Source: Anaeromassilibacillus senegalensis | GTDB taxonomy: Bacteria; Bacillota; Clostridia; Oscillospirales; Acutalibacteraceae | NCBI RefSeq assembly: GCF_001261775.1 | Contig: NZ_LN868538.1 | Coordinates: 434,001 to 498,000 of the forward strand | Length of the DNA stretch: 64,000 bases | Direction of reading: 5' to 3' | Shown: positions 4,796-48,772 of the stretch, in pieces | Numbering within the stretch: position 1 is the first letter of the stretch | Layout of the letters: each line of letters begins with the position of its first letter | The notes under the pieces: generated by a model | Database searches by the model: none | Told to the model about the DNA's origin: nothing | The model's input: the letters and a program-made list of their open reading frames with translations, nothing else | Program-made: the position numbers and the translations under genes

Positions 4796-5029
4796 TCAGT
4801 GCACAGTAACCCCACCGTGGTTCTGTGCCGTCTGACCCGGGGCCTCCTGTCGGGACACGCTTTCAGCGAGATCCATTTCTGACAACATAATGGAACTGCG
4901 GCCGGCACGCGTCTACGACGATTCTCTTAACCGGCCCGTTTAAAATCTCAATCAATGATTACTGTACCGTGTTTAACCGGATTCTGCCCCGGGATCTCTG
5001 GTTGAGACGTGTTTACAGCAAAACCTATT
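4796..5029 (-). repeat. Three decayed copies of the 3' tail of the upstream hydrolase
   Basis: Past the stop codon of the GH-D-like gene the minus strand contains three successive relics of the sequence that encodes its final residues (PQKHCVVTIA). Read in local frames they give IPGQNPVKHGTVIID then stop (about 4948-5010), PQFHYVVRNGSR then stop (about 4866-4905), and APGQTAQNHGGVTVH then stop (4796-4850). The equivalent bases lie 82, 79 and 73 bp apart. The spacer before the stop (GAGACGTGTTTACAGC-like) also recurs, and is shared with the spacer behind the GH3 gene. The relics are not in frame with the gene. Confidence 0.7.
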
Positions 5030-8000: not shown

Positions 8001-11000
8001 CTGCCCTGGTTCCAGAACATCAGGATATGGTCGTCATATTCGGAATTAAACTTGTAATCGAAGTATTCCGGAATGTCCGTACCGCACTCAAAGAGGCCGA
8101 CCGGGCGGGCGGAAATGCCGTCAATCGGGAATGGAACAGACCGGCCGATGTCCTTGATCTTCTGGTCGTCCATACGGGTGACGCTCTCGCCGATGGTCAT
8201 CTTGCCAAACAGAAATGCGGTGCCGGTAATCTGCGCGCGGCGCAGGTCGAGATCGTTGTCCTCAAAAACTTTAACGTCGGAATAGAGAAGCTTGGTCTTT
8301 CTATGGCGGTACCACTGGTACATCGCCGTGCGGGCGATTTCCGGGGAGAACTGGTTGGTATCTCCGATGGTGCGCTGAATGTCGATCAGACCGATCGCCA
8401 AATCAGAACCGCTGTGCTCCCAGGAGTTTTCAGAAATGCGCATATCGGGGCCGACATACTTCTTCGGCAGCGCAAAGATATTGCGGTATGCGGAAACGGT
8501 TGTAGCATACGGGTCTTCAAAACCGCCGGTCTTATCCAGCAGATATCCGCCGCTCTTGCCGTGGTACTGTCCCGCATAGTCGAAGAACAGGGAGCGGATG
8601 CCCGCATCCTTAATATTGGCATACACATCCGCCATATGGGCAATGAATTCCGGATCGGTGTAGTCGGGGCCTTCCAGCGGATCGTTGTAGAGCATGTGGC
8701 CCGGGTACTGCTCGCAGTAGTCGTCGGAACGATAGGAAGCCTGCATATAGAGGCCGCCCTCGCCGCCGGCGTTGTTCATCGCCTTGTTCCAGTCTTTAAT
8801 GGTCGGATAGTTGTCCGTCATATGCCCAAACTGCTTCCAATGTGCATCGTCCCACCAGAGCTGCTCATTCGGGTTGACATAACTGTCCGGCTCCACGCGC
8901 AGGTTCGGAATCGCATAATTTGCCATGCCGCGGTCCACAAGATCCTTGACCTCCTGCACAGCGAAGTCCGCGTTGTTGGAGCCCGGGGTCAGCCAGTTGA
9001 CATACCAGAGGCATTCATAGTAATACGGGTCAAAGTCGATTAGATCGACCTCCATCGCATCTGCCTGCTTGGTCGCATAGGCGTCGAGGGAATCGTAGGG
9101 GTTCTTTTCGGTAAAGTTGATCAGCGCCTTGTCGCCCATATAGAGCTGCCCGGCGTCGACCAGTTTGCCTGTGTTATCATAAATGCGGATTTTCGCATCC
9201 ACGCTCTTTCTGCCGTTGTTTTCCAGAGAGAGGCCCGCGTTGTACGCGGTGTCGATGGTGTTCTGGAACTCATAGGTGGTCAGGCCGCCGATGAGGAAAC
9301 TTTCCTTCTCCGGATCGTTCCGGTAGGAAAGCATGGTGTTGTTCTTGGAGGTTGCCGTCGCACTGTTTACCACGCGCGGCACGGTCCAGTTGCCCTCGCC
9401 GGTCAGGATCGTGTGGTCTTCAGCCGGGTCGGGGCCGACAAAGATACCGCCGCTGCCAGCATAATTGGCAATGATCGGGTACATCTGCATCAGCTTGACG
9501 CCCGCGTCGGTGTTGTTGACAATACCAGCGGTCAGAATGACATCGCCGCAATGATCCTCCAGCGTCACATCCAGCACAATGCCGTTCGCGCCGTCTTTTT
9601 CACCGATCATGCGCATGGTTTTACCCGCGAAGCCGTCTTCAGTCACGTCTTCCATATGGAATACATACCCATTGGTGCTCTTGTCATCGTTGACCTGTGT
9701 GTAGGCGTTGAGCACATACGGCAAACCGCTTTCCTGCTCATACACCGAATAGCGGCCGGTCATTTCGTCATATACGACGCGGACCATATCGTTCTGAATC
9801 ATGGTGAACGTGTCGCCCAGCTTTACGATTTCCGTCTTTTCCGGAACCGCGACGTCTCCCAGGCTGGTAAAGCCAACTTCCGCGGTGATATTCTCGCCGC
9901 CGTTTGCGGTTGCCACGACCTTAAACGAACCGCTCTTTAAAATCGTCAGCAAACCGTCCGCGTCAATCGTTGCAACGTCCGGATCATCGGACTGCACGGA
10001 CCAGGTGATCGACTTGTCCGTCGCGATGATCGGATAAACGGTCGCCTTCATCTGCACGGAGCCAAGTTCCTGGCGGATGGTTTCGCCGTCCTCCGGCGCA
10101 ATCACCAACCGTTTGACCGGGACCACTTCACCGTAGTCGCTGTCAAAGAAGATGCCGTTGACCACTGCGTTCGTTTTAACAGGGCTGTAATTTTCATTGT
10201 TGACTTTGACGTCAACGGAGCCGCTGAACGGAATGGTCACATATTTGCCCTTAGAGAGGGTACCGATTTCCGTCTTCTTGGATATCGGAATATCCGTTCC
10301 CGGCTGGAAGAGCTGGTAGCTGACCGCTCTGCCGTTTTCATTTTCCGCCAGTGCGTAGAATGTGAGGGTATGCGTATCCGTATCGTTCACACGGATGCGC
10401 ACTGTCAGGCACTTGTCATCAAAGCGGTAGGAAATTTTGCGGGTGCCTGTTTCGTCGTCCGGATTGACGAGGCCGTACGGCAGCGTTGCCGCCGTGCCGG
10501 TTTTCGCTGTATAGTTGCCGTTGCGGTCTTCCACGCCGTACGTAATGCCGTCCACATAGTAGGGCAACTTTTCCACGTCGACAGAGCCGGCATTCCAGGC
10601 GTTCAGCACATATCCGTCCCCGCCGTAAGTACCGGTCCAGTCGCCCATCGTTGTTTCGTCGACCGTCCACTCGGCGGCTTCGCCTTCAACCACGCTGATC
10701 AAGCAACTGCCGCTGATTTCGGTGCCGTCCTTCGCCGTCGCAATCACATTGTAATTGCCCGGCGCTTCGATGTTCAGCAGGCCTGTCCCGTCGATCGTGG
10801 CCTTGCCTTCGTTCTCGGACTGCATGGGCTCCACAGACCATGAAACCTCTTTGTTGGCCGCATAAGACGGCGCAACAGAAGCGATCATCTGGATCGGGAA
10901 GTCCGACTCATCAAAGGAAGTCTGTCCATTTGGCGCGCTGACTGTAACTTTGCGCACCGGCACATCATCATATGCCAGTGTGTCAAAGAATACACCGCTA

Positions 11001-11617
11001 ATCACGACGTTTGTGACCAACTCTTTAATATTCTCATTCAAAATAACCACGTCGACATCCCCGCAGAATTCCGCGGAAACATACTGGCCATTGATAAAAT
11101 TGGAGATGGTCACTTTGTCGGAGAGTGCGCGGTCCGTGCCAGCCTCAAAAATTTGATAGCTCTGCTCGCGGTCCTGGCCCTCAGCCGCATAAATGGTAAT
11201 GGTATGCATTTCGTCGTCGTTGACATCCACATGCATAACCATTTTTTCATCGTCAAAAATATAACCCAGACGTTTTTCTTCGCCTTCCACTGCGATCTTG
11301 GAGACGTCCGGTGCGCCGCTCTTCAACCATGTGCCGTGGCGCGCAAAATAAGAATACGTAACACCTTCCACATAGTCGGGATAATTGTCCCGCGGTGTCC
11401 GGTTGCCGGTGCCTGCGCCATCATAGGCGGGCAGCGTATAGCCGTCTAACCCATATACGCCGTTGAATGCACCGTTTGTTTCTTTGTCGACCGTGAAGAA
11501 CGTCTCCACCGGTTCAAATGCTTGTGCCTGCGCGACCGCGCCAATTGGCCCTGCCGAGAACAGCATGGTACATGCCAATACCGCCGCGGCGAGCTTTTTG
11601 CCCAGCCGTGTTTTCAT
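5030..11617 (-). CDS. Giant secreted glycoside hydrolase, clan GH-D-like, with CBM32, Ig-like, FN3 and FIVAR modules
   Basis: This 2195-residue protein has a signal peptide (about 1-33, ending AQAQA). Two copies of an unnamed module follow (about 35-210 and 320-500, with GVYGLDGY versus GTYGGDGY), each with a bacterial Ig-like domain after it. The catalytic region (about 600-1370) has a beta-rich front part and a barrel resembling GH27/GH36 (clan GH-D) enzymes. Candidate catalytic acids are Asp about 1012 (SLFFDYAG) and Asp about 1084 (TIGDTNQ). After it come FN3, an F5/8 type C (CBM32-like) domain, another Ig-like domain, and the C-terminal cassette common to all four hydrolases here: an Ig-like module, FIVAR-type repeats, a Gly/Ser linker and a Cys-containing terminal domain. 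The ATG at 11617 follows AAAGGAGTGA. Alpha-galactosidase-like activity is a guess; the family assignment is the least certain of the four. Confidence 0.75.
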   Translation of the reverse strand: MKTRLGKKLAAAVLACTMLFSAGPIGAVAQAQAFEPVETFFTVDKETNGAFNGVYGLDGYTLPAYDGAGTGNRTPRDNYPDYVEGVTYSYFARHGTWLKSGAPDVSKIAVEGEEKRLGYIFDDEKMVMHVDVNDDEMHTITIYAAEGQDREQSYQIFEAGTDRALSDKVTISNFINGQYVSAEFCGDVDVVILNENIKELVTNVVISGVFFDTLAYDDVPVRKVTVSAPNGQTSFDESDFPIQMIASVAPSYAANKEVSWSVEPMQSENEGKATIDGTGLLNIEAPGNYNVIATAKDGTEISGSCLISVVEGEAAEWTVDETTMGDWTGTYGGDGYVLNAWNAGSVDVEKLPYYVDGITYGVEDRNGNYTAKTGTAATLPYGLVNPDDETGTRKISYRFDDKCLTVRIRVNDTDTHTLTFYALAENENGRAVSYQLFQPGTDIPISKKTEIGTLSKGKYVTIPFSGSVDVKVNNENYSPVKTNAVVNGIFFDSDYGEVVPVKRLVIAPEDGETIRQELGSVQMKATVYPIIATDKSITWSVQSDDPDVATIDADGLLTILKSGSFKVVATANGGENITAEVGFTSLGDVAVPEKTEIVKLGDTFTMIQNDMVRVVYDEMTGRYSVYEQESGLPYVLNAYTQVNDDKSTNGYVFHMEDVTEDGFAGKTMRMIGEKDGANGIVLDVTLEDHCGDVILTAGIVNNTDAGVKLMQMYPIIANYAGSGGIFVGPDPAEDHTILTGEGNWTVPRVVNSATATSKNNTMLSYRNDPEKESFLIGGLTTYEFQNTIDTAYNAGLSLENNGRKSVDAKIRIYDNTGKLVDAGQLYMGDKALINFTEKNPYDSLDAYATKQADAMEVDLIDFDPYYYECLWYVNWLTPGSNNADFAVQEVKDLVDRGMANYAIPNLRVEPDSYVNPNEQLWWDDAHWKQFGHMTDNYPTIKDWNKAMNNAGGEGGLYMQASYRSDDYCEQYPGHMLYNDPLEGPDYTDPEFIAHMADVYANIKDAGIRSLFFDYAGQYHGKSGGYLLDKTGGFEDPYATTVSAYRNIFALPKKYVGPDMRISENSWEHSGSDLAIGLIDIQRTIGDTNQFSPEIARTAMYQWYRHRKTKLLYSDVKVFEDNDLDLRRAQITGTAFLFGKMTIGESVTRMDDQKIKDIGRSVPFPIDGISARPVGLFECGTDIPEYFDYKFNSEYDDHILMFWNQGSQTKTMQADLGKDTAFGGVGLDPEKEYEVWDFWNWNYIGKYQGSDILSQRVRKNEMRTMAVREVRDDPYLLSTNRHVLQGAFDAKNIAYDAASKTMTGTFEVVGNDTYKAIIPLDGHELIAKDLKVDNENVTASFVHSAFGNYVELIMDAAENQTANWTLTFEEGTMEPDTEAPTDVMGLKASADYDGLVSLTWQPSTDDSGFVRYNVYGSDQADFVPSEDNLIVTVNETSFVDEIVHNGSYYFAVAATDASGNVGGAASVRTQSVPEAIPVSKMTATAGDANSTSEAASKVLDDNPSTMWHTNWNGVSRDKQWIDIKFNAPTVVNTYRYLPRSGAGNGTIKQFELLASKDNGATYEKIASGEWKAEDGWKEVRFPATTVTNLKLMSITSVGNYSSAAEIRAYNTPDMTGISMRETAVSLDVGDNDTLLVDIYPTNLSGTALTWTSSAPDVAVVDENGVVTALKEGMAVITASVPDTEFQASCEVSVGTPVPEEHTITVRYTKNASLSIDGEVQKLANLLGKYEAEVLAGTTLTLDFTPFVEGRSFAGVTVNGETVDFDIDAYTYTIDMPNQAVEVDLHFEAVDKSVLGATIVYAESCADEAAQAIPVIKAKYEKALKHAKEVDKQKTATQQEINDAWGELLDALHLLSFQPGNKTALQGLIDVAKAVDPELYTEASMEKIAAAVALAEGVIADENAMDDSIQEAYDALMKALDERQMKADLSELEKMIQQAKDIIENRDSYIDSGFDKLQEALDAAEEMTAENTQKEVNAVVKTLTEAVANMRLKADKSKLEALIAEMEKVDTSRYTASSARVFLNALKDAKDALANRNLSEDDQLFVDEKCNRLQAANAQLEHKGSGGNGGSSSGNKNTSNSGKTSGEGTLVAVTTPGVVTGGATVAQAASVISDTTLPFTLRRGSAYCFKMTVVNGNNLVPNFTVGNSDVLKTQFVARIGNDYYYRVWAVGTPGASTGVYTQLSNSVPQKHCVVTIA

Positions 11618-11884
11618 AAAATCACTCCTTTTCAATTCTCAACCATCCTTCATTCTTCCAAAATTTTACGCAATTGAACCTCCTTCCTCCCCATTTTATA
11701 TCTAAAAAGGAAATCAATTATCTCCTTTTCAGCTCCGCTTATTACATATTTAGATATATTTTACTAACATAGTATATATAAATTATCCATGTTATTAATT
11801 CTTTTTTATATTATTGGTATATAATGGAAGGATTTTATTTTGCACAGGATATATATTTACCCATTCACTGAAACGGCAAAATAA
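11618..11884. other. AT-rich leader region of the GH-D-like gene
   Basis: No gene is supported. On the minus strand the leader has an orphan strong Shine-Dalgarno (GGAAGGAGG, about 11678-11690) followed by a 7-codon frame starting TTG at 11673 and ending TGA, some 56 nt before the true start. It might be a leader peptide or chance. Farther upstream the DNA is very AT-rich (11740-11830), probably holding the promoter, but no clear -35/-10 pair could be picked. Confidence 0.35.
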
Positions 11885-12481: not shown

Positions 12482-12564
12482 TCAGGCGACGGTAATCATA
12501 CAATGTTTCTGCGGAGCTTCGTCCGGAAGCTCCGGTCGGGACGCGCTTACAGCGAGCACCCCTT
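12482..12564 (-). repeat. Extra divergent tail copy behind the GH3 gene
   Basis: Past the GH3 stop, 83 bp from the equivalent bases of the gene, the minus strand encodes LPDEAPQKHCMITVA then TGA, clearly related to the gene's own MPNEAPQQHCVVTIA end. The frame differs from that of the gene because 83 is not a multiple of three. The spacer (GGTCGGGACGCGCTTACAGC on the plus strand) resembles those behind the GH-D-like gene. Confidence 0.75.
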
Positions 12565-15500
12565 TTAAGCGATTGTGACAACACAATGCTGCTGCGGCGC
12601 CTCATTTGGCATTTGGGTGTATACGCCGGTGCTCTGGCCCGGTGCGCCAATCGCCCAAATGCGGAAATAATACGCATTGCCAATCTTGGCCACGAACTGG
12701 GTCTTGAATGCATTGCCATTGCCGACAGTGAAACTCGGCACCGCAGCGCTTCCATTGACAACCGTCATCTTGAAGCAGTACGCCGCGCCTCTCTTAATGG
12801 AGAACGGCAATGTGGTATCGGAAACAACGGAAGCGGTCTTCGCCACAGTTGTTCCACCCGTTACGACCGGGGCCGCCGGTACAACCGGAGCTGTTCCATC
12901 GCCGGAAACCTTACCGGAGGAACCGCCCTTATTACCGGAACCGCCGCCGGAGCTGCCATGGCTGTTGTTGTCCTTGCCTTTCTCGACCAGCGCGTCTACC
13001 AGGTTGTCAATTTTTGCTGCTCTCGCGTCGATCTCGGGCTGATCCTCTGCGTCAAGGTCTGTATCCAGGTAGTTTTTAGCCGCTTTGATTTCGCTCAGGA
13101 GCGCATTGACGCCGGAAGCCTCATATTTGCTGAGGTCCATCTTCTCTACGTCCGCAATCAGGGTTTCCAACGCCTTCTTGTTCGGTACTCTGCGCAGAGC
13201 CGCCATCGCGTCCGCCAGTTTCTTCGCCGCCGCCTTGATCTCGCTCTGGGACGCTTCTTCGTCATCCACGACTTTCTTCGCTTCTGCCAATGCCGTCTGG
13301 AACGCTTCCTGATTATCCGGCAGGAACGCGCCCGCTTCGATCTCTTCGGCAATGGCCATTGCCTCGACGACCACAGTGTTCAGGTAGGTTTTATCCACCT
13401 TATCCAGCAGGGCGATCATGGCGTCGTACAGCGCGTCTGCCGCGTCTTTTACCTCTTCTTCCAGGGCATTATCGTCCGCAACGACGACCTTTGCCGCTTC
13501 CAGGGCATTCTCAAATGCCTCGATGTCGCTCGGCAGGGAACCTTCCGTATCGACCTCTTCGGAAATATTGATCAGATAATTCAGGTAGGTCTTATCGCCG
13601 GCCTTGAAGCTCAGCATCTGGATGACGTCGATCAGCTTGAAGCTTGCGTCATTCAGTTCCGCCTGCGTCGCGTCCGGGTTATCCAGCAGCGCTGTTGCCG
13701 CCGCGATGGCGTCGGTCAGGGCTTCCTGCACCGCCGGAATTGCTTCCTTGTACTCGTCGGTCGTGAGGCAATCCTCCGCAATTGCAAGTACAGTGCGCAG
13801 GGTAGATTTGTTCAGCAGGGTGTAAGAGAAATTCAGCGTGTTGTTCTGGTAATCCGCTGTGTACACATAGTCAAAGCGTGTCGGATCCTTTATTGCAACG
13901 GGTTCGCCGTTAAGCAGGACCTTGCTGAATTCCTTACCGTCCGCACGCGGGATAAAGCTGAGCGCCACGGTCTCGCCGCGCTTTGCAATACCGTCGTAGC
14001 GGCTGATGTTGTCCGCAAACTTCTGCTCCTCGCCGTTTACCAGCAGGGAAGCATCTCTGCCAACATAGTTGACTGTGTAGGAGACATCTTCCATTACCTT
14101 GGGTACGAATTTGAACCAGTTGACGTTAAAACCGGTGACCGTGCAGTAGAACTGCAGCTCATGACGTCCGGCGGGAAGGGTGATTTCAAACGGCTCCAGG
14201 GTCGTCCAGCTCTGCCAGCCGCCGGTGGGGGCCATGCTGGAAACGCCGCCGATGCTCTTGCCGTCCAGACGGAGGTCAAATCCACCATCCGCGTTAACCG
14301 CCACTCTGGTATAGAAATCATAGGTGCCGGGAGCTTCAATATCAAAGTAGTACTTCATCCAGTTGCCCTTGTCCGTATGAGTCGGATTGGTACCGCCGCC
14401 TTCGTCCTCGCAGGCTTCTTCGCCGATACCGAGGGCTTTGAAATAATCGATTGCTTTAATGGTCGTTTCTTCCGTCGCGCTGATCGGCACATATTCCGGC
14501 TGAGGCGGGTTGACGATTTCGCGATCCATAACAGGGGTTTTCATGATCATTTCCAGCGTGCGGGCAATATTGCGTTCCAGCTCCGCACGGGTCAGATCGC
14601 CGTTTTCCAGAGCGGTCAGGATGCTGTCGGAGCTGCCACTCGGCATCTTGACATCATCGCCCGCTTTGACTTCCTTCCAGTGGGTGCTGTCATTGCCCCA
14701 GTCGGACATGACCATACCCTTGAATCCCCACTCGCCACGGAGAATATTGGTCAGGATATCGTAGTTTTCAGAAACTTCCGTTCCGTTTACATAGTTGTAG
14801 GAGGACATGATACACCACGGGTCCGCTTCCTTTACCGCGATTTCAAAGCCCTTCATATAGATTTCACGCAGAGCGCGCTCGGACATTCTGCTGTCGCTCG
14901 CATTTCGGTTGTTTTCCTTGTTGTTTGCCACAAAGTGCTTGAGGGTAATGGAAACGCCTTCGCCTTGCACACCTTCGGTGATAGCAGCCGCCGTTTTACC
15001 AGTGAGCAGCGGATCTTCAGAGTAATACTCAAAGTTGCGGCCGCACAGCGGATTGCGGTGAATGTTCATGCCAGGTGCAAGCCAGATATCCAGCTTCTTC
15101 TCCAACGCCTCTGTTGCAACGCCTTTGCCGACCTTCTGTGCAAGATCAACATCCCACGTGCTGGCCAGGTTCGTAGAGCACGGCCATGCGGTGGCTGTAC
15201 CGGAACGAACGCCGGCTGGTCCGTCGGTGGTCTGCGCTCCCGGGATGCCATATTCGTCCAGTCCACCGATAATACCTGTCGCAATACCGGGATGTCCCTG
15301 GGACAAATAAGCCAAGTCTTCATTGGAGAGCTGCGCGATAAAATCGTCCATCGTCGCCGTCCCATGATAGACGTCGATCAGCATGATTTTATCCGTCGGT
15401 TCATCGTCCGCCGCTTTTGCGGAAGATGCCGCACGGCTGCCCGCAGCCTTACTGCTCGCGGCAGAGGAGGCACGGAACGCTGCCGCCGCAGGCTCCTCAG

Positions 15501-17781
15501 CTTCTGCTTTGGAGAAATCCATATAGTCGATATTACCGAACAATCCGGTGGAAACCAGTTTGAATTCACAAAGCCCCTTCGGCAGATTCACCTGAATTGG
15601 GCCAAAGGTCTCAAAATTATACCACTCGCTCTTGCCTTCACCGTCGCCGGTCTGCGGAAGGTTGAAATTGATGCCCGGCTGCAGCTTGCCGTCCACGTAA
15701 ACGCGCATCATATCCGGGATTTCCGGACGGCCGTTGGACATGCTGAAAGAAATGTTGTACTCGCCTTCTTCTTCCACATTGAGGTAATAGGTAACCCAGT
15801 TGCCTTCATAGTTCATGTAGGCCAGCGTGCTGATTTCTTCGTCACCCGGCTGCGGCACATAGCCCAGCGGATGGTTGGGAACACAGTTTTCAATTCGGAC
15901 GCTGCCCGCCGCGCCGAAGAACTGTTCTGCTTCCACGCGGGAGGTCTCTGTTGCAGAAATGGCAAAACCTTCTTCCGGTTGAACCATATTAAACGTCATA
16001 TAGTCGGTGTTACCGTATTTGGTACCTTTGCAGGTAAGCTTTAATGTGCAGGGACCCTTTGGCAGCTTAACCTCAAATGGCTCCAGGTCGATAAAGTTAT
16101 ACCATTCTGCTTTGCCGCTGCCGTCGCCTGTCTGCGGCAGGTTAACAACAACCTTCTGATCGCGGCCTTCCACCTCAACAGTAACCATGTCTTTAATTTC
16201 CGCATAACCGTTGGACATATGGAGCTGCACGGCATAGGTTCCGGCTTGTTCCACATTCAGACTATAGGAAACCCAGCGGTGTTCTTCCGCACTGTCCATG
16301 AACGCCACGCACTGTCCATCGCCAAATGACTCTACCACTACGTTTGCATGTGCGGATTCATAGTCTTCCGCCTCCACCTTTGTCGGCTCTGTGGCGGAAA
16401 TCTTTTTGATAGCCTCGCTGCGCATATCCTCATAGCTGCCGTCCGCCAAAAGACGTTTCGGAAGGCGTTTCGGAGCCGCCTGCTCGGAAAGCTGCTCGGT
16501 TACATACGCTTCTTCTACCGTATAGGTACCGCGCACGCCCTTTTCGCCGGCGTCCCGAATAGAATTGCCGACATAGACGTCATAGTCGCCGGCTTCCAGC
16601 ACATAAGCGGATTTATGTCCGGTAATCCCAGTATCGTCATAACTGGACATATCCTCGATTGCAAAAGACATTTTCAGAGTCTCAGAAGCCTCCGGCTCCA
16701 AAAGCCCCGTTTTTGCATAAGCCGCCAGCTCTTTTGCAGGTTTGCCCAAGACAGCGGTACCGGTACCCATCTGCGGCGCACTGAAATAGACCTGCGCCAC
16801 TTCTTTACCCGCCACATCGCCGGTATTGGTGATTGTCGCTTCCACATTGATATTTTCTTCATCGTATGTAACCTTTACATCGGTCATATCAAATGTGGTA
16901 TAGGAAAGGCCGTAACCAAACGGATAGCTGACCTTCTCATACTCTTGATCAAAGGTCTCAAAATAACGGTATCCTACAAAGACATCCTCTTCGTAGTTGA
17001 CATATGCGTTATTGCTGAAGTTATTGGAAGACGGATAATCCTCGTAATTTTTCGCCCAGGTATCCGTCAGTTTGCCGGAGGGGTTGACGTCTCCGCAAAG
17101 CACGTCCGCGATGGCGTTTCCACCCTCCATACCGGCCTGCCAGCCGATCAGAACGGAGTCGATCTCAGGATGCGCTGTGATCCATTTGGTATCGATAATA
17201 CCGCCGATATTCAGGACCACGACAACATTCTCAAAGCCCGCCGCGCAGACCAGATCCAGCATTTGGGATTCGGTATCACTTAAGAGATAATCTCCCTTTC
17301 CGGCGCTTCTGTCAGAGCCTTCACCGGAATTGCGGCTGATGACTACAACCGCCGTATCAGACTCGGCTGCCGCCGTGTTGGCCATATCTGCCGTCAGTGT
17401 CAACGCCTTGTTCGCTGTATAAGCATCAACCAACGTTTTGTTCAGGGTGATCTTGCCTTCTTTTTCTTTATTCTGCATTCCCTGCAGAATATTGACCAGA
17501 TAATCTACGCTCGTGTCACCGGAACCCCAGCCGCCCTTCACGTAGTCGATCTGGCCCTGCCCGAAAAGTGCCACCGAACCGCCCTGCGGAATCGGCAGGC
17601 CATTGTCCTTGTTTTGCAGCAATACCATACCTTCGCTTGCCACCTGACGCGCCAGCTCCGGATTGCCCGGCGAATACTTAGCGCTGGCTACCGGCGCCGC
17701 CGGTATTGTTCCAAACAGCATAGTCATGGTAAGAGCCGCCGCCAGAATTTTCTTCGCTGCGCCTTTTCTTTTCAAACTCAT
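12565..17781 (-). CDS. Giant secreted GH3 glycoside hydrolase with swapped domain order and inserted CBM6 modules
   Basis: This 1738-residue protein has a signal peptide (about 1-36). The usual GH3 order is inverted. The C-terminal alpha/beta domain and FN3-like part come first (about 37-450, with SRNSGEGSDR and YPFGYGLSYT). Two CBM6-like modules (about 460-600 and 607-760) and an Ala/Ser-rich linker follow. Then comes the (beta/alpha)8 domain (about 797-1095), with the substrate motif KHFVANN and nucleophile Asp1027 in VMSDWGND. A third CBM6-like module (about 1098-1228) and the shared Ig-like/FIVAR/terminal-domain cassette complete it. The ATG at 17781 has GGGGG 7 nt upstream. A beta-glucosidase-type exo-hydrolase is likely; the sugar is not defined. 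Inverted GH3 order is known in ruminal clostridial enzymes, but the module insertion is unusual. Confidence 0.88.
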   Translation of the reverse strand: MSLKRKGAAKKILAAALTMTMLFGTIPAAPVASAKYSPGNPELARQVASEGMVLLQNKDNGLPIPQGGSVALFGQGQIDYVKGGWGSGDTSVDYLVNILQGMQNKEKEGKITLNKTLVDAYTANKALTLTADMANTAAAESDTAVVVISRNSGEGSDRSAGKGDYLLSDTESQMLDLVCAAGFENVVVVLNIGGIIDTKWITAHPEIDSVLIGWQAGMEGGNAIADVLCGDVNPSGKLTDTWAKNYEDYPSSNNFSNNAYVNYEEDVFVGYRYFETFDQEYEKVSYPFGYGLSYTTFDMTDVKVTYDEENINVEATITNTGDVAGKEVAQVYFSAPQMGTGTAVLGKPAKELAAYAKTGLLEPEASETLKMSFAIEDMSSYDDTGITGHKSAYVLEAGDYDVYVGNSIRDAGEKGVRGTYTVEEAYVTEQLSEQAAPKRLPKRLLADGSYEDMRSEAIKKISATEPTKVEAEDYESAHANVVVESFGDGQCVAFMDSAEEHRWVSYSLNVEQAGTYAVQLHMSNGYAEIKDMVTVEVEGRDQKVVVNLPQTGDGSGKAEWYNFIDLEPFEVKLPKGPCTLKLTCKGTKYGNTDYMTFNMVQPEEGFAISATETSRVEAEQFFGAAGSVRIENCVPNHPLGYVPQPGDEEISTLAYMNYEGNWVTYYLNVEEEGEYNISFSMSNGRPEIPDMMRVYVDGKLQPGINFNLPQTGDGEGKSEWYNFETFGPIQVNLPKGLCEFKLVSTGLFGNIDYMDFSKAEAEEPAAAAFRASSAASSKAAGSRAASSAKAADDEPTDKIMLIDVYHGTATMDDFIAQLSNEDLAYLSQGHPGIATGIIGGLDEYGIPGAQTTDGPAGVRSGTATAWPCSTNLASTWDVDLAQKVGKGVATEALEKKLDIWLAPGMNIHRNPLCGRNFEYYSEDPLLTGKTAAAITEGVQGEGVSITLKHFVANNKENNRNASDSRMSERALREIYMKGFEIAVKEADPWCIMSSYNYVNGTEVSENYDILTNILRGEWGFKGMVMSDWGNDSTHWKEVKAGDDVKMPSGSSDSILTALENGDLTRAELERNIARTLEMIMKTPVMDREIVNPPQPEYVPISATEETTIKAIDYFKALGIGEEACEDEGGGTNPTHTDKGNWMKYYFDIEAPGTYDFYTRVAVNADGGFDLRLDGKSIGGVSSMAPTGGWQSWTTLEPFEITLPAGRHELQFYCTVTGFNVNWFKFVPKVMEDVSYTVNYVGRDASLLVNGEEQKFADNISRYDGIAKRGETVALSFIPRADGKEFSKVLLNGEPVAIKDPTRFDYVYTADYQNNTLNFSYTLLNKSTLRTVLAIAEDCLTTDEYKEAIPAVQEALTDAIAAATALLDNPDATQAELNDASFKLIDVIQMLSFKAGDKTYLNYLINISEEVDTEGSLPSDIEAFENALEAAKVVVADDNALEEEVKDAADALYDAMIALLDKVDKTYLNTVVVEAMAIAEEIEAGAFLPDNQEAFQTALAEAKKVVDDEEASQSEIKAAAKKLADAMAALRRVPNKKALETLIADVEKMDLSKYEASGVNALLSEIKAAKNYLDTDLDAEDQPEIDARAAKIDNLVDALVEKGKDNNSHGSSGGGSGNKGGSSGKVSGDGTAPVVPAAPVVTGGTTVAKTASVVSDTTLPFSIKRGAAYCFKMTVVNGSAAVPSFTVGNGNAFKTQFVAKIGNAYYFRIWAIGAPGQSTGVYTQMPNEAPQQHCVVTIA

Positions 17782-17982
17782 TTTCAAACCCCCGTTCGTT
17801 TCATAAACTCCTTATTCCAATCGTTTGCCCGATCCTGTATTTTGTCCCTCCTTTTCTTTATCAGTTGTATCAGTATGGAAATGGTTCCATAAACAGCTCT
17901 TTTGCTATATTGAATGTAATACCATCTCCCCTCCCCAATGAAAACCTCACTATAGTTATTAATCCGTTGAACCTATGATCTT

Positions 17983-18011: not shown

Positions 18012-18102
18012 TAGAATTCTCTATAAAATACACAGAATATATTTATACTATTGATAATTTTACAACATATTTACTTGTATCTACTTTGGAATTATAAGGC
18101 AA

Positions 18103-18144
18103 AAAAACAAGCAGCCGGCCCTGTTTTTCACAGGACCGGCTGCT
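18103..18144 (-). terminator. Terminator after the GH31 gene
   Basis: A 14-bp GC-rich stem (AGCAGCCGG(C/T)CCTG) is followed on the minus strand by TTGTTTTTTT. It lies beyond the 78-bp tail array. Confidence 0.9.
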
Positions 18145-18175
18145 CTTTACCGCATCTGGAATACAGACACAAAGT

Positions 18176-18475
18176 GTCTTTCACACCTATGTTGGTTTTC
18201 AGTGGCGGCAATCAGTCGATTGTAACCACACAGTGCTGCTGCGGACGTACAACGTCATTCGCACTTACGATGGTTTTCAGTGGCAGTAATCAGCCAATCG
18301 TTACCACACAGTGCTGCTGCGGACGTACAACGTCATTCGCACCTACGGTGGTTTTCAGTGGCAGCAATCAGCCAATCGTTACCACACAGTGCTGCTGCGG
18401 ACGTGCAACGTCATTCGCACCTACGGTGGTTTTCAGTGGCAGCAATCAGCCAATCGTTACCACACAGTGCTGCTG
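18176..18475 (-). repeat. 78-bp tandem array carrying the GH31 gene's last codons and stop
   Basis: The plus-strand sequence GGTTTTCAGTGGC recurs at 18194, 18272, 18350 and 18428, an exact period of 78 bp (26 codons). Each unit encodes, on the minus strand, QQHCVVTIG followed by TGA and then an open spacer reading about LLPLKTTVGANDVARP. The copy nearest the gene supplies its genuine stop at 18446-18448; the other stops are at 18368, 18290 and 18212, all in the gene's frame. The inner units are nearly identical while the outermost is slightly diverged (VTID). No CRISPR-like arrangement is present: there are no unique spacers and no palindromic repeat. Confidence 0.9.
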
Positions 18476-21400
18476 GACCTTCTCACTCGCCATTGTGGTA
18501 TACACGCCGGTGCTCTGGCCCGGAGTGCCGACCGCCCAGACTCTGTAATAGTAGTCATTGCCGATCTTCGCCACAAACTGGGTCTTCAGCACACTGCCGT
18601 TACCCACGGTGAAGTTCGGGGCCGCGCTGCTGCCGTTGACAACCGTCATCTTGAAGCAGTAGGCGCTGCCTCTCTTCAAGGTGAAGTTTGCCGTGGTATC
18701 GGAACGGACGGATTTCTGGCCCATCACGTTCTGTACCGCGTTGATTAACGGGTTGGGCACAGCAACTGCCGTTCCTGTTCCGGAGGTGTTGCCAACCGGC
18801 TTCTTGCTGCCGTTGCTGGACGGTTTATTGCTCGGCTTGTTGGCAGGCTCTTCCGGTTTGTCCGCCAGAACCAGACCCGCACGGGCCTTCTCTACCGTCG
18901 CGCAGACCGCCGTGATTTCCTCCGGGGTGGCGTTCTCATCTTCATAGACGCCCTGCGCGTTGTTCAGCGCCGCACGCAGGATTGCGTAACTCGCCTCGGT
19001 GTAATCATCCGGATTGAGCGCTTCCGACTCGTCGATCAGGTCCTTCAGCACTTTCTTGTCCGGGATCATGCGCAGGTTCATCATCGCTTTGTACAGGGCG
19101 TCCGCCATTTCGTCCACCTGCTTCTGGGTCGCATTCGCGTCCTCCAGAAGGGCTTCCGCCTGCGGGAACAGCTCGTTGAACTTGTCTTTTTCCGGGCCGT
19201 CCAGGTACTTGTCAATTTCAATCTCCTGTGCCTGCTGTACAAAGGCTCCCAGCACTTCCGTGTTTGCCTTGAACTCCAGGCGCAGGATTGCTTCTTGCAG
19301 GTTCTTTGCCGCCTTTTCAACTTCCGCCTTCAGCGTTTCGCCCTCGTCGTTGTAGATCTCTTCCGCATAGGCGAGCGCTTCCGCATAGCCTTCCAGGCTC
19401 TTCGGGGTGAAGTTGTTCAAGTCGAGCATGGCGGCGTAGTCGAGCCAGTATTCCAGCTCGTCCTTGGTGCCCGCCTCAAAGGAGAGGTAATGCATCGCGT
19501 CGAGCAGTTCCTTCCAGGCTTCGTTTACTTCTTCCTGGGTGGCACTGTCGTCTTCATAGACGGCCTTCGCGTTGTCGCGCGCCGCGATGAAGCGATTGCT
19601 TACGGACTCGACCAGACCAGCAAGCTGCTCATTGGTCACTTCGTTTGCCTTCTCCAGCAGGGTTTCCAGAATCCCCTTGCTTACGCTGGTGAATACAAAG
19701 CGCAGGGACGCCTTATCGTTCGGCATGGTAAAGGTGTAGGTGCAGCCGTCTGCCTCAAACGGGATGTCTTCTCCGTTAAGCTGCGCGCTTGCGAACGGGC
19801 CGTCTGCTGGGGTGAAGCTGAAGGTCAGCGTGTCGCCCGCATAGACCGTCGCGCCGAGCATGCCGTCCCGCTCGATGAGCGCTTCGTATGCACCCTCTAC
19901 AGACAGCGTTGCGTTTGTTCCATACTGCACCGTCAGGACCTGCTTCTCCAAGCCGGAGACGCGGTCGAACCGCAGGGAATCCAGATTAAAGTTGCCGGAG
20001 TTTGCAGAACCCTCGGAACGAATCTTAATGGTGTGTTTGCCTTCCGTCAGGGCAACGCCAGAGAGAACTTCTTCAAACCATTCGCCCCAACTCTGACGGA
20101 CCTTCAATGCAAAATCTTTCACCTTGACGCCGTCCACATACAGCGCGCCTGTGCGCGGCGTATTATCGAACTGTGCGCCGTTCTTTTTGCCGCAGGCCGC
20201 ACGGAGAGCCAAGTCATACATGCCGGCCTGTTTGACATTGACATCAAACTCAACAAAGTGGCCTACCGCTTTCCAGCCCGCTACATAGCCGCTGCCGGTG
20301 TAGCCCTTCCACTCGGTGTCCACACGGACTTTGCCGCTGCCGTCGCCATTGCCGCTGCTGGTATCGCCTCTGGCGTTCTCCAGTTCAAAGACGCTTCCGG
20401 ACTCAATGTCGTTCTCGCCCTCTTCCAGCGTTACAGTAACGTCCACACGTGTGCTGTCCGGCACGACAAAGGTGTACTCTTTGCCCGCTTCCACTTCGGT
20501 CAGCGCAACGGTGTTGCCATCCGCATCGACTGCGGAAATAGATTTAAACTTTCTGCCCATCTCGATATTGGAAATACGGACAGTTACAGTGTCGCCCACT
20601 TTTACGCTCTCCGGCGTCACTGCTACGGTCGCGCTGCCGCCGGTCACCTCTGTGGAAACAGAGGAACGGTCGCTCTTAAAGCGGAACCAATCCATATCGC
20701 AGATGGACTTATCTGTCTCTGTATTGACGAATTTGAGATAGACGTCATGCGTGCCGACAACGGTATCGCATACGCCGGTGTACGTTTTCAGCGTATTCCA
20801 GTCGCCGGTATTTGCAATCTTTACCTCTGCGACCTTCTCGCCGTCCACGGCGTCGAGACGGACTTCCATCGTGCCGCCCTGCAGGCCGGCCGCGACGCGG
20901 ACTTCCACGCTCGCCGCGTCTCCGTCTCCAAAGTCTACGTTGTTAAACTTGGCCCAATCGCCATTCTCAATGTGGTTCAAGACAGTAATTTTCTGTCCGT
21001 TAACCGTCTTGGAGGCGGTATCGATTCCCTGCCGATCGTCGGCGGTTTCCGCTTCGATCTGGCTGAAGGCGTCAATTACCTTGCGATTGGAAATAAATTT
21101 GATCCAGTCCATATCGCAGATGGAACTGGTGGTGGAGGTGTTGACAAACTTGAGATAGACGTCGTGAATTCCGGTGATTTCCATGCAGTCGCCAGAATAC
21201 ACCTTCAGGGTATCCCAGTTGCCGGTAGGTGCAATTTCGACTTCCGCCGCTTTGACACCGTTCACGGAGTCGAGACGAACTTCCAGCGTACCGCCCTGCA
21301 GGCCGGCTGCCACCTGGGTTTCAAAGCTTACCACGCCGCCTTCGCCAAAGTTGACGTCGCTGAACTTCGCCCAGTCGCCGTCCTCAATGTGATTCAGCAG

Positions 21401-24400
21401 AGTATAACGCTGTCCGCTGATGGTCTTTGAGGTGGTATCGATGCCATGGCGCTCGTTTGCGGTCTCCGCCTCAATCTGGCTGTATGCATCGATGGTCGCT
21501 TTATCGGTTGTAAAGTGGAACCAGTCTACATCGCAGTCAAAGCTCTCCGCGCCTTCCTTCGCAACAAAGGACAGGTAAATGTTGCTGGTCACAGCATCCG
21601 TATCCTTTGATACAGATGTCAGTGTGGTCCACTTGCCATTTGCCGGGATTTCCAGCGTGGCAAGAATCTTATCACCCACACCGTTTTCATAGACGACTAT
21701 GCTGCCGCCGGTGGTGCTCTTGACGCGCAGGGCAAGTCCGCTCTTCTGGCTGCCGCGCACTTCGTCAAACTGCACCCAGGCGCCGTTCTCTGTCACGGCG
21801 AGCTTGCTGCCGCCGGAGGCCGCGGTATCCGCAGCGACTGCCACGCCGCCCTCCAGGTGCGATGCGCTTTCCGCCTCAATCTTGCTGAACGCGTTGACAG
21901 AGGTGTCCACATAGCGGAAGGTCAGGGAATCCAGATTGTAATTGCCCGGATTGCTGCCCTCAGCGCGAATCTTCATGGTGGTAACGCCCGATTCGAGCTT
22001 CACACGGTAGGTGTAATCCACCCAAACGCCCTGCTTGACGCCATCCACGGTTTCGCCCCACTTGTCGGTCACTGCAAAGGCGAGGTCTACCGCCTTCTGG
22101 TTCTGGATATACAGGCCGCCGGTGCGCGGCGTGCTGTCGAACTGCGGCGCGTTCTTTTTGCCGTTGTTGACGCGCAGCACCAGATCATAGGTGCCGGCGG
22201 TCTCAACATTGACGTCGAACTGAACCGCATCGCCAACCGCTTTAAAGCCCTTGGCAAAGCCGCTGCCGGTGTAACCCTTCCACTCATTGTCCGGTTTGAC
22301 TTCTCCGCCGCTCGCGGGCAGCATTTCCGTCTCTTCCATTTCAATGACGCTGCCGTCCGTGATTCTGGTCGGCGGGTTTCCTTCGTTCTCGTCGCCCAGC
22401 TCCGGCTCCACGATGCCGCCAGACGCAAGGACTACATCGATCTCCTTGCCGGTATCCGGGGTGCGGACATAGACGGTGTTGGCGTCCGTATCCAGCCAGT
22501 AAGCCTGCTCCGCGGCGTTGTATGCTTCCAGGGAATCCGCAGCTGTAATCGCCGTACCGTTGATGGTCACGCCGCTGACTTCTGCGATATGGTTAAACTT
22601 GAGATTGTAAGAACGCGCATCCGGGGTGTAGACCGCCGGATTGTTGTCCACTCTCTCATGGATCTTGAAGGAGATATCGGTTCCGTCCTGAATGCTTTCA
22701 AAAGTTGTGGTGCTGTAAGCATTCTCTGTGATGTACTTGCGGCTCTGACCATCGTCTTCGTACAGGGTAAAGGAGGTCTTTCCCTTCGGATAGATGTCGA
22801 GGGTGAGCGGGTCGAGCGGTTTTTCGTCCGCATAGTTGACGTCCGGGCCCATCGGGACAATTGCGCCGGACTTAACAAATACCGGGATTTCTTCCAGCGC
22901 CGCCGCCACGGTGATGTTTTTGCCGATGGGGCCGCCTTCATAGCGCTCGCCGGTATAATAGTTGTACCATGTGGTTTCCGGAGGCAGCCACACCTTGACG
23001 GTGGTGTCCGCTGTGGCGGAAGCCGGCGCTACCAGGAACCAATCGCCATAGTAGTACTGCTTGTTCAGATCCCAGGCAGCCGGGTTATACTGGCTGTCAT
23101 CTTCCAACAGCATGGCGCGCATCATCGGTACGCCCTGGCTGTAGCCCTGCCATGCCAGGGAATAGGTGTACGGGTACAGTGCATAACGAACCTGCAGGTT
23201 CTGCTTGAGCGTGTCCTGCGCGGTCTGGTCAAAGGTCCAGGGCTCGCGTCCATCGTGGCCGTGTGTACGCATCATACCGCTCCACGCACCGAACTCAGAA
23301 ACCCAACGGGTATACAGCTCATTGCTCGGGCGCTTCATAAAGCCGCCCAGGTCGTTGGAGGATGTCCAGTAACCGACCAGGCCTGCGTCAATGCTGAAAC
23401 CGATCTGGTTATCCAGCTCCGCGCTGGTATTATTGATATCGCCGGACCATGCGGTCGCAAAGTGCTGGCCCGCATAGCTGCCTCTGGTGACAAACATCGG
23501 ACGGGATTCGTCCGTATATTCCTGCCACGCCTCATAGGCGCCCTTGGAGGAGAACGTCGGGGCGGTGTTGGTGCCCAGAACGTCGAACTCATCCGGCCAG
23601 AACCAATCGCCGTATCCGGTGGTGATTACGCTGTCCATATAGGACTTCACCCATTTTTCCTCGTTCTCCGGCTTGTAGAGTTCCTTGCCGCCGGAAGCCT
23701 CCGGCGTACCCGCGTTGTTATGCAGGCCGACATGGAATCCCAGCTCGTCCGCTTCTTTAAACATGGCGTCGATATCCGGGAATTTATTGGTATCGTTGCT
23801 CCACATCTGCTTGCCCCACTTTTCGCCCGCGCCGTGCTGTGGGTTGCCGTTATCCGCAACGTCGCCGCGCCAGCCGTAGTCGAACACATAGCAGTCGGTC
23901 GGATATCCCTCGTCGCGCAGACGATGCAGCCACTCCAGGAATTCCTTCTGTGTCGCGTTGTCGTTGCCGTACTTGGAGAGCATAAAGCCGTGCGCCCATT
24001 TGCCGTACAGCTCCATGCGGCCGGTAATCTCCGCGTACTCGTTCAGAATGGTCTTAAAGTCCGGGCCATACATAAAGAAATAATCCAGATAGCCCTTCGT
24101 CTGGAAACCGCCGCCCTGTTTAAAGAACTTGGTTTCCTTCTCAATGGTGTTGAGGAACACGCCGTAACCGACCGTGCTCATAAAGAACGGTGCGATCAGC
24201 CGGCCGTGGCTCATGCTGAATTCCGTAAAGTCGCTGCCGTAGCGATTCAGATTGGAACGGCGGCCGTGGTCACCGGATCCAAAACCGAAAATGCCGCCGG
24301 CATTTTTGGCACCTTCCACACGCTTGACGCCGCGTACGCCGGAATCGTCCCAATACATGCCCTGATCATCGGCGTCCTTGCTGAGCAGATTGCCCTCCAG

Positions 24401-24790
24401 ATCATACATGCCGATGCGAAGCGGGCTTTTCTGCACACGGATTTCCATGGCGTCGGTACGGATTTTGATGGTTCCGTCCTCCTCGGTCACGGTGCGATTT
24501 ACCGGGTCCCAGATGTTCTTCTGTACCATATAGTACTGCGGATCCTCCGGCCGGTAACCGTTCGCGCCATCCAGGGAAAGCTGGATGCGTGCGGTGCGGT
24601 CTGTGCACAGCTCAACCGTCACTTCCTGTCTGTCGCAGCTGAAGGTCAGCACGTTGCCGTCCTCCGCCAGTGCAGTCACATCGCCGATCTGCGCCAAGGT
24701 CGCCCCCTGTGCCGCCGTCGCCGGCAGGACCATCATGGAGAAAACCATTGCCACAGTCAACAGCAGGCTGAGTAATCTTTTCTTTCTCAT
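18446..24790 (-). CDS. Giant secreted GH31 glycoside hydrolase with CBM35/CBM6 modules
   Basis: This 2114-residue protein has a signal peptide (MRKKRLLSLLLTVAMVF). The GH31 barrel carries nucleophile Asp400 in WFWPDEFDVLG and acid/base Asp451 in AWSGDINN, preceded by RGSYAGQHFATAW. After the proximal beta domain come a CBM35-like module, three CBM6-like modules (two closely alike, with IDAYSQIEAETA and IDAFSQIEAETA), an Ig-like stretch, a second CBM35-like module, and the shared Ig-like/FIVAR/terminal cassette. The ATG at 24790 follows AAAGGGG; an in-frame ATG at 24853 with GGGAG is a second possibility. The active-site wording differs from plain alpha-glucosidases, so alpha-N-acetylgalactosaminidase or another exo-alpha specificity is possible. 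Three extra tail copies follow the stop. Confidence 0.88.
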   Translation of the reverse strand: MRKKRLLSLLLTVAMVFSMMVLPATAAQGATLAQIGDVTALAEDGNVLTFSCDRQEVTVELCTDRTARIQLSLDGANGYRPEDPQYYMVQKNIWDPVNRTVTEEDGTIKIRTDAMEIRVQKSPLRIGMYDLEGNLLSKDADDQGMYWDDSGVRGVKRVEGAKNAGGIFGFGSGDHGRRSNLNRYGSDFTEFSMSHGRLIAPFFMSTVGYGVFLNTIEKETKFFKQGGGFQTKGYLDYFFMYGPDFKTILNEYAEITGRMELYGKWAHGFMLSKYGNDNATQKEFLEWLHRLRDEGYPTDCYVFDYGWRGDVADNGNPQHGAGEKWGKQMWSNDTNKFPDIDAMFKEADELGFHVGLHNNAGTPEASGGKELYKPENEEKWVKSYMDSVITTGYGDWFWPDEFDVLGTNTAPTFSSKGAYEAWQEYTDESRPMFVTRGSYAGQHFATAWSGDINNTSAELDNQIGFSIDAGLVGYWTSSNDLGGFMKRPSNELYTRWVSEFGAWSGMMRTHGHDGREPWTFDQTAQDTLKQNLQVRYALYPYTYSLAWQGYSQGVPMMRAMLLEDDSQYNPAAWDLNKQYYYGDWFLVAPASATADTTVKVWLPPETTWYNYYTGERYEGGPIGKNITVAAALEEIPVFVKSGAIVPMGPDVNYADEKPLDPLTLDIYPKGKTSFTLYEDDGQSRKYITENAYSTTTFESIQDGTDISFKIHERVDNNPAVYTPDARSYNLKFNHIAEVSGVTINGTAITAADSLEAYNAAEQAYWLDTDANTVYVRTPDTGKEIDVVLASGGIVEPELGDENEGNPPTRITDGSVIEMEETEMLPASGGEVKPDNEWKGYTGSGFAKGFKAVGDAVQFDVNVETAGTYDLVLRVNNGKKNAPQFDSTPRTGGLYIQNQKAVDLAFAVTDKWGETVDGVKQGVWVDYTYRVKLESGVTTMKIRAEGSNPGNYNLDSLTFRYVDTSVNAFSKIEAESASHLEGGVAVAADTAASGGSKLAVTENGAWVQFDEVRGSQKSGLALRVKSTTGGSIVVYENGVGDKILATLEIPANGKWTTLTSVSKDTDAVTSNIYLSFVAKEGAESFDCDVDWFHFTTDKATIDAYSQIEAETANERHGIDTTSKTISGQRYTLLNHIEDGDWAKFSDVNFGEGGVVSFETQVAAGLQGGTLEVRLDSVNGVKAAEVEIAPTGNWDTLKVYSGDCMEITGIHDVYLKFVNTSTTSSICDMDWIKFISNRKVIDAFSQIEAETADDRQGIDTASKTVNGQKITVLNHIENGDWAKFNNVDFGDGDAASVEVRVAAGLQGGTMEVRLDAVDGEKVAEVKIANTGDWNTLKTYTGVCDTVVGTHDVYLKFVNTETDKSICDMDWFRFKSDRSSVSTEVTGGSATVAVTPESVKVGDTVTVRISNIEMGRKFKSISAVDADGNTVALTEVEAGKEYTFVVPDSTRVDVTVTLEEGENDIESGSVFELENARGDTSSGNGDGSGKVRVDTEWKGYTGSGYVAGWKAVGHFVEFDVNVKQAGMYDLALRAACGKKNGAQFDNTPRTGALYVDGVKVKDFALKVRQSWGEWFEEVLSGVALTEGKHTIKIRSEGSANSGNFNLDSLRFDRVSGLEKQVLTVQYGTNATLSVEGAYEALIERDGMLGATVYAGDTLTFSFTPADGPFASAQLNGEDIPFEADGCTYTFTMPNDKASLRFVFTSVSKGILETLLEKANEVTNEQLAGLVESVSNRFIAARDNAKAVYEDDSATQEEVNEAWKELLDAMHYLSFEAGTKDELEYWLDYAAMLDLNNFTPKSLEGYAEALAYAEEIYNDEGETLKAEVEKAAKNLQEAILRLEFKANTEVLGAFVQQAQEIEIDKYLDGPEKDKFNELFPQAEALLEDANATQKQVDEMADALYKAMMNLRMIPDKKVLKDLIDESEALNPDDYTEASYAILRAALNNAQGVYEDENATPEEITAVCATVEKARAGLVLADKPEEPANKPSNKPSSNGSKKPVGNTSGTGTAVAVPNPLINAVQNVMGQKSVRSDTTANFTLKRGSAYCFKMTVVNGSSAAPNFTVGNGSVLKTQFVAKIGNDYYYRVWAVGTPGQSTGVYTTMASEKVQQHCVVTIG

Positions 24791-24924
24791 ACAAACCCCT
24801 TTCTTGTCTCCTTTTCCGGCTGTGATCAGCTGGAAAAGACCATCTTTACCCATTTCTTCTCCCTTTCTATACCTCTTCGTTCCCACCTTTCTCATAGGAG
24901 ATTTGAACACTCCTTGTTGTATTC

Positions 24925-30510: not shown

Positions 30511-37733
<7,223 letters not shown>

Positions 37734-47193: not shown

Positions 47194-47330
47194 CCCCCCT
47201 GTCGATACAATTGGTCACTTACTTGGTCGCTCCCAATTTCAAAGAGCTATCCATATAAACGCAGTTTGCCGGGAGCGGCCCTTTTCTGTCCCGCCCAGAC
47301 GCATTTCCGATTTTCACCATGGTTCAGGGC

Positions 47331-47411
47331 GGGCCGTGCATACAAACTCAGTTTGTCGGGCCGTGCATGCAAACTCAGTTTGCCGGGCCGTGCGTGCAAA
47401 CTCAGTTTGCA
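47331..47411 (-). repeat. 27-bp tandem repeat spanning the ntpB stop codon
   Basis: There are three units of 27 bp (47331-47357, 47358-47384, 47385-47411) of plus-strand type GGGCCGTGCATGCAAACTCA plus GTTTGCC. Each contains, on the minus strand, the hyphenated palindrome GCAAAC-TGA-GTTTGC whose centre is a stop codon. The unit nearest the gene provides the genuine ntpB stop (47402-47404). A weaker fourth relic lies near 47257-47280. Confidence 0.88.
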
Positions 47412-48772
47412 TAGTATTGATCAAGGAAGACATCCTTGATACGTTTCAGCTCGCTGCGGGGCAGGATGGACAACAGCTTCCAGCCGATGGCCAGCGTCTC
47501 TTCGATATCGCGGTTTGCGTCGTATCCCTGAGAGACATACTCCTGCTCAAAGGCGTCCGCAAACTTGGCGTACAGCTTGTCAATATCCGTTAAAGCCGCT
47601 TCACCCAGAATGGTCATGAGCTCCTTGGCTTCCTTGCCGCGTGCATACGCCGCAAAAAGCTGGTTCATCGTGTTCGCGTGATCGGCGCGGGTTTTCCCCT
47701 CGCCAATGCCCTTGTCCTTCAGACGGGACAGGGACGGCAGTACGTCGATTGGCGGCGTGACGCCCTTACGGAACAACTCACGGCTCAGGATAATCTGCCC
47801 CTCTGTGATATAACCCGTCAGATCGGGAATTGGGTGGGTTTTGTCGTCTTCAGGCATGGTCAGGATCGGGATCATCGTGATACTGCCATTCTTGCCCTTC
47901 TGCCGTCCGGCGCGCTCATAGAGAGACGCAAGGTCCGTGTACATGTAGCCCGGATAGCCGCGGCGTCCCGGCACCTCCTTGCGCGCGGCGGAAACCTCGC
48001 GCAGCGCGTCGGCGTAGTTGGTGATGTCCGTCAGGATGACCAGCACGTGCATATTCTTCTCAAACGCGAGATACTCCGCGGCGGTCAGCGCCATACGCGG
48101 CGTCGCGATACGCTCGACCGCCGGGTCGTTCGCCAGGTTGACAAACATGACGGTGCGGTCGATCGCACCTGTCTCCTTAAAGCTCTGGATAAAGAAGTTC
48201 GATTCTTCAAACGTGATACCCATGGCGGCAAACACAACCGCAAACGGTTCGCTTGTTCCGCGCACCTTTGCCTGACGCGCAATCTGCGCCGCCAGATTGG
48301 CATGCGGCAAGCCGCTGGCAGAGAAAATCGGCAGTTTCTGCCCGCGGACCAGCGTGTTCAGGCCGTCGATGGCGGAGATGCCCGTCTGAATAAACTCCTG
48401 CGGATAGTTGCGCGCCGCCGGGTTCATCGGCAGGCCGTTGATATCCATACGCTTGTCCGGCAGAATCTCCGGGCCGCCGTCGATCGGACGGCCCAAGCCG
48501 TCGAACACGCGGCTGAGCATGTCCTCGGAAACACCCAGTTCCATGCTGCGGCCCAGGAAACGCACCTTGCTGTTGCTCAGGTTGATGCCGGTGGAGCTTT
48601 CAAACAGCTGCACCAGCGCGTTGCCGCCGTCGATCTCCAACACCTTACAGCGGCGCTTTTCTCCACTGAACAGCTCAATTTCGCCCAGTTCGTTGTATGT
48701 GACGCCTTCCACACCGCGCACCAGCATTAGAGGACCTGCAACCTCCTGTATCGTCCGGTATTCTTTTGGCAT
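47402..48772 (-). CDS. ntpB: V-type ATP synthase subunit B
   Basis: The 456-residue non-catalytic subunit B of the V1 head has the family start [26 protein letters not shown] and [18 protein letters not shown], with no canonical P-loop, as expected. It alternates with subunit A in the hexamer. Its ATG follows the ntpA TAA directly, with AAAGGAGG inside the end of ntpA. Its stop lies inside a 27-bp tandem repeat. Confidence 0.96.

Follow-up and report, generated by a model that had tools for sequence, protein, structure and literature searches.

The question raised by this locus is why the end of a gene, stop codon included, should recur three times behind the gene's own stop. The window, by which we mean the whole stretch of 64,000 nucleotides analyzed from Anaeromassilibacillus senegalensis, carries on its minus strand a gene for a GH31-type multidomain surface enzyme with Pfam matches to GH31, CBM6/CBM35, and FIVAR. 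Between its stop codon and a terminator-like hairpin with a T-run lies an array in which the final 30 nt of the gene, stop codon included, occur four times; these copies (here called tails) are spaced by 48-bp spacers.

The array and its host gene

Tandem Repeats Finder placed the array at 18176-18475 with a period of 78, 3.8 copies, 93% matches, no indels, and a score of 509, which confirms the four units and exact 78-bp period described in the first-pass annotation. The tail coordinates (Table 1) likewise bear out that three further tails follow the true stop, every one in the frame of the GH31 gene. The peptide QQHCVVTIG, which had been read in all four units, is present in tails 1 to 3; tail 4 ends in a different residue and is probably the older end, displaced. 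The spacer sequence given earlier needed correction, the inner spacers being LLPLKTTVGANDVARP, LLPLKTTVGANDVVRP, and LLPLKTIVSANDVVRP. The units differ from one another at several bases, which rules out a duplicated-read artifact of the simple kind. Chance origin is excluded by the Tandem Repeats Finder score together with the recurrence of tail, spacer, and tail in 15 further genes of this genome. Within the window's 64 kb, only a single additional array reached the threshold. A 27-bp tandem repeat (47330-47410, 3 copies, 94% matches) lies at the end of a minus-strand open reading frame (ORF) at 47402-48772.

Table 1. Coordinates in the window of the array, its host gene, and related features
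Feature	Position	Strand	Remarks
GH31-type multidomain surface enzyme gene, array host	18446..24910	-	2154 aa from first listed start
C-terminal domain (CTD) of host gene	18449..18712	-	88 aa; predicted Ig-like beta-sandwich
Tail 1	18446..18475	-	Last 9 codons + TGA (QQHCVVTIG*), predicted last CTD beta-strand; stop 18446-18448
Type-A spacer, copy 1	18398..18445	-	48 bp; TTGCTGCCACTGAAAACCACCGTAGGTGCGAATGACGTTGCACGTCCG; mini-palindromes CACCGTAGGTG and GACGTTGCACGTC
Tail 2	18368..18397	-	Past the stop; QQHCVVTIG*
Type-A spacer, copy 2	18320..18367	-	
Tail 3	18290..18319	-	QQHCVVTIG*
Type-A spacer, copy 3	18242..18289	-	3 differences from copy 2
Tail 4	18212..18241	-	QQHCVVTID*; outermost, most diverged
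Decayed type-A-like stretch 3' of tail 4	18164..18211	-	TTGCCGCCACTGAAAACCAACATAGGTGTGAAAGACACTTTGTGTCTG
Terminator-like hairpin + T-run closing the 3' UTR	18101..18145 (about)	-	Strong; kept in sister species
Other CTD copies	12571-12831, 30592-30852, 5036-5296		
Single type-A spacer + displaced tail	30511..30588	-	VKHCTVTVG*; behind CTD gene 30589-37485; absent from sister-species counterpart
Type-B-like spacer + displaced tail	12482..12564	-	QKHCMITVA*; +83, out of frame; behind GH3 CTD gene 12565-17787
Type-B-like spacer + decayed displaced tail	4948..5029	-	+82, out of frame; behind CTD gene 5030-11635

The host gene ends in a CTD of which the 3.5-Mb genome holds about 75 to 80 full-length copies, mostly at the ends of very long genes. 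AlphaFold2 modeled the CTD as an Ig-like beta-sandwich (mean pLDDT, 92.3), and in this model the repeated tail is predicted to be the last beta-strand, residues 80 to 87. A fold search returned Ig-like domains, with the S-layer protein SbsC as the top match (E of about 1e-3). The CTD matched no Pfam family, no NCBIfam model near its cut-off (one weak match, E of 0.008), and no significant sequence relative in the PDB. Among 150 family genomes sampled, close and numerous copies were confined to this genus, with distant versions in four genomes of other genera. The domain has two conserved cysteines, at positions 19 and 83, and ends most of the very long surface enzymes of the genus, where it may serve in anchoring to the surface or in sorting.

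Recurrence behind other CTD genes

We scored a tail matrix over the 450 bp 3' of each CTD stop codon in the genome containing the window (G000) and in the sister genomes Clostridium sp. D33t1_170424_F3 (G002) and Anaeromassilibacillus sp. An250 (G003). An extra tail was found behind 30 of 74 CTD genes in the own genome and 25 of 77 in the sister species; a handful of these are weak, and shuffled flanks pass this test at about 1%. The annotation's link between such units and genes with a C-terminal domain in other genomes is thus confirmed in sister species. The recurring entity is a cassette consisting of the last 10 to 15 codons plus the stop codon of one CTD gene, followed by 37 to 48 bp (sometimes longer) of noncoding spacer made of small palindromes. 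Outside CTD genes, the 42 ORFs of the window yielded one further candidate, a doubtful ORF that overlaps a duplication of the ordinary kind with 70-bp spacing. At 58997-59126, two 60-nt direct copies (85% identical, spacing of 70) lie near an inverted repeat and overlap a doubtful 115-aa ORF.

Several types of spacer exist, and they are mutually unrelated. Most cases in the own genome have the 78-bp type-A arrangement (16 genes, including the window gene). In type B, prevalent in D33t1 and present in the own genome too, the second tail lies at +81/+82 behind a spacer beginning AATGGTCTTCGCTGTAAGCGCGTCCCGACCGGAGGTC; types C (+78) and D (+52) are seen in An250, and some spacers are long. The whole type-A array was not found in other members of the genus, in which only fragments were detected. 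The stop codon of tail 1 tracks the spacer type (TGA in 16 of 16 type-A genes, TAA in 12 of 12 type-B genes), and the stops of displaced tails are mixed. Each spacer type meets the tail at one fixed position, which lies near codon -10 for types A and C, at -15 for type B, and near -28 in UC5.1. This junction also explains why the gene's own upstream sequence (SEKVQQHC) differs from that of the units (ARPQQHC), a difference the first-pass annotation had reported correctly and left as a puzzle: the homologous block begins at QQHC, where spacer and displaced tail join. At two loci the insertions are nested, reading tail-C-tail-D-tail at L102 (An250) and tail-A-tail-long spacer-tail at L054, and these stacked events indicate that the same site has been reused. 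At L111 (An250), ~30-bp palindrome modules resembling CGCCGTAGGCGCGAAAAGACGCCGTGCGTC stand in tandem between the CTD stop and the displaced tail; this run shows that expansion can affect the spacer as well.

Empty and occupied sites among orthologues and paralogues

For the window gene, the D33t1 genome contains a syntenic orthologue, 98% identical over the 500-aa part compared, with a single tail. It is followed by a different 3' UTR of about 155 bp and then by the same terminator and ~90% identical downstream DNA. This comparison suggests that the array in the window is a species-level gain; the alternative, loss in D33t1, appears less likely given the other data. The recent expansion of inner units that had been proposed is supported by the absence of the array from this orthologue. 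At least the last step was tandem amplification, as indicated by the near-identical units and the decayed A-like stretch after the last tail.

Other locus pairs, drawn from paralogues as well as orthologues, were matched through flank similarity, full synteny being available for the window gene only. At these pairs, the flank after the displaced tail resembles the flank directly after the counterpart's single tail: 92% identity for L052/L050, 89% for L158/L137, 97% for L080/L132, 84% for L083/L039, and 77% for L070/L051. Base-by-base alignment of four pairs gave clean insertions of 78 bp (L052/L050 and L158/L137) or 82 bp (L080/L132 and L083/L039). In the four clearest pairs, the displaced tail matches the counterpart's native tail at 30/30 positions in L052, 28/30 in L158, 29/30 in L080, and 29/30 in L070, and the present tail 1 matches that native tail at 24/30, 25/30, 21/30, and 20/30, respectively. 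This native-tail test is nondiscriminating for several An250 pairs (L095, L102, L104, and L122) and for L054, L057, and L045. Type-A spacers are 94% identical across 13 genes, compared with 78% at the third codon positions of the CTDs of the same genes, so type-A spacers spread after the genes diverged. Past tail 2, the DNA at type-A genes is 30% identical, i.e., unrelated.

Chimeric tails occur as well. Incoming and native stretches are interspersed in them at homologous positions, as in ectopic gene conversion, and this supports recombination between paralogous gene ends. Incoming-like sequence seems to reach about 30 to 75 bp upstream of the stop. In L052 the incoming sequence runs into the CTD, and in type B it is found partly in both tails. 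The suggestion that the array is a store for swapping C termini stands in one respect, as recombination does exchange tails (tail 1 is of the incoming type and the displaced tail is native). A functional store is not supported, since the peptides encoded by most stored tails are almost alike and the displaced copies are older ends undergoing decay.

Explanations weighed and known systems compared

We propose that short-tract ectopic recombination probably carries a tail-plus-spacer unit from one paralogous gene end to another, and that the unit was tandemly amplified in the window gene. A cassette enters the end of another CTD gene, and the recipient gains the incoming tail while its own tail is pushed downstream behind the spacer. 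We infer that the transfer is short-tract ectopic homologous recombination between paralogous gene ends, either as gene conversion or by template switching. The upstream homology arm would be the CTD or tail 1 and the downstream arm the displaced tail, perhaps assisted by palindromes that stall replication. Since the last beta-strand and the stop codon are both restored by the incoming tail, the protein would hardly change and the insertion would be tolerated; the model calls for no cellular function. In the window gene, the direct repeats would then have grown by slippage or unequal exchange to give three A units plus the older tail. Conversion in short patches or a template switch at palindromes would be a plausible route to the incoming tracts, which seem to span ~30 to 75 bp. 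Such tracts are below the usual length of gene conversion and could indicate a more specific mechanism.

Such a mechanism might be a dedicated mobile cassette, with the tail as the attachment site of a recombinase or single-strand transposase, the palindromic spacer as its recognized end, and the gene end rebuilt on entry. The fixed junction within each spacer type, the short incoming tracts, the use of one site by several spacer types with nested insertions, and the palindromes that adjoin the junction and occur dispersed elsewhere in the genome all agree with this idea. We nevertheless regard it as rather unlikely, as the junction position differs between spacer types, the type-B tails and the incoming tract of L052 are unlike the product of a single crossover of a small circle, and the own genome has no match to the Y1 transposase family (PF01797). 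The insert encodes no recombinase, and the survey for recombinases acting in trans covered PF01797, which had no match in G000, G002, or G003 and six in G001. The stronger form of this idea, a dedicated system of minimal cassettes moved by a recombinase, is likewise unlikely in our judgment; if true, the attachment site would be the last strand of a domain shared by surface proteins, every insertion would reconstitute the gene, and the former ends would be left stacked in order of time.

Another account has every gene simply duplicating its end in tandem by slippage, with inheritance through gene duplication. It fits the look of the window array, including the decayed spacer after its last tail, and could explain the amplification step there. 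As a general account it is improbable. Elsewhere, the differences between the two tails go with type and the displaced tail matches the counterpart's native tail, the DNA behind displaced tails is unrelated between genes, and spacer divergence is far below third-position divergence; for L052, L080, L083, and L070 it is refuted. A functional 3' element, with the spacer acting in the mRNA (stability or termination) or as a selected recombination hot spot, is quite improbable, even though the window gene's units sit between stop and terminator and the mini-palindromes occur as complementary variants (CACC/GGTG versus CGCC/GGCG and GACGT/ACGTC versus GACGC/GCGTC). The A unit and the spacers fold no better than shuffled sequences (z of about 0), type B folds worse, the window has no Rfam match, more than half of the CTD genes lack a unit, and spacers vary between species. 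The annotation's 3' RNA element finds no support in that folding energy of the A unit. Its other proposal, that programmed stop readthrough appends further tails, could draw on the 16 type-A genes with 78-bp spacing and a spacer open in frame. It is barely credible, as the second tail is out of frame in type B and in other members (+82, +52, +155, and +170), and variation by codon position in the spacer (3/11/7) is not coding-like, unlike that in the tails (7/2/20 and 9/4/30).

Among open-access papers we found no equivalent system. Repetitive extragenic palindromic (REP) elements, such as the GTAG- and CGTC-tagged ones, BIMEs, and other small palindromic repeats are likewise dispersed between genes; for CGTC repeats, whose stems are 8 to 9 bp, no dedicated transposase was found (PMC3733652). 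The spacer palindromes resemble them in being dispersed over many intergenic places, also away from CTD genes: GACGTTGNACGTCC occurs at 45 sites in the genome, on both strands and often off CTD genes, compared with 1 for the reversed control. The spacers differ in lacking a 20- to 40-bp hairpin with an unpaired GTAG or CGTC end tag; their stems measure 4 to 5 bp and enclose 3-nt loops, and neither tag stands outside the stem, GTAG overlapping the loop and CGTC being contained in the stem. The Y1 (RAYT) transposase of GTAG-class REPs also has no match in the genome, and what spreads here includes a coding tail with its stop and displaces the native tail. Modular mini-palindromes (GACCGGAGGTC, GACGTTGCACGTC, and CGCCGGAGGCG) form intergenic mosaics off CTD genes in the own genome (e.g., L025, L027, L028, L029, and L032), and these have the look of a REP-like family not yet described.

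The RU elements of enterobacteria, where fused to the 3' ends of genes, are small repeats that supply a new C terminus and stop codon (PMC2759123), as the unit does here. The RU extension is unrelated to the gene, however, whereas this unit is a homologous tail that restores the last strand and keeps the old tail downstream.

Some integrative elements insert at gene 3' ends and rebuild them. The likeness is that an incoming copy rebuilds the gene end and leaves the native end on the far side of the insert; the differences are an insert of ~80 bp without integrase, dozens of paralogous genes, and unrelated spacers sharing the site. Gene conversion also occurs among paralogous surface-protein genes, and it too transfers sequence between paralogous segments within one genome, but here a net insertion is moved, a displaced end is left, and former ends are stacked.

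Several further candidates were rejected. L052 and type B are not accounted for by a single crossover of a 78-bp circle, and RAYT-driven REP movement was set aside on the absence of PF01797 matches in the own genome. A transposon or MITE with target-site duplication is at odds with the incoming-type tail 1 and native displaced tail of L052, L080, L083, and L070. Integron attC cassettes and diversity-generating retroelements bear no resemblance, as judged by eye.

These gene ends indicate that noncoding DNA can spread through coding genes harmlessly by carrying a spare last strand and stop codon, and that a tandem repeat past a stop codon is no sure sign of readthrough or RNA function. Because sister species offer the site both empty and filled, rate and mechanism can be tested directly, and at dozens of genes the displaced ends can be read as a record of one replacement after another.
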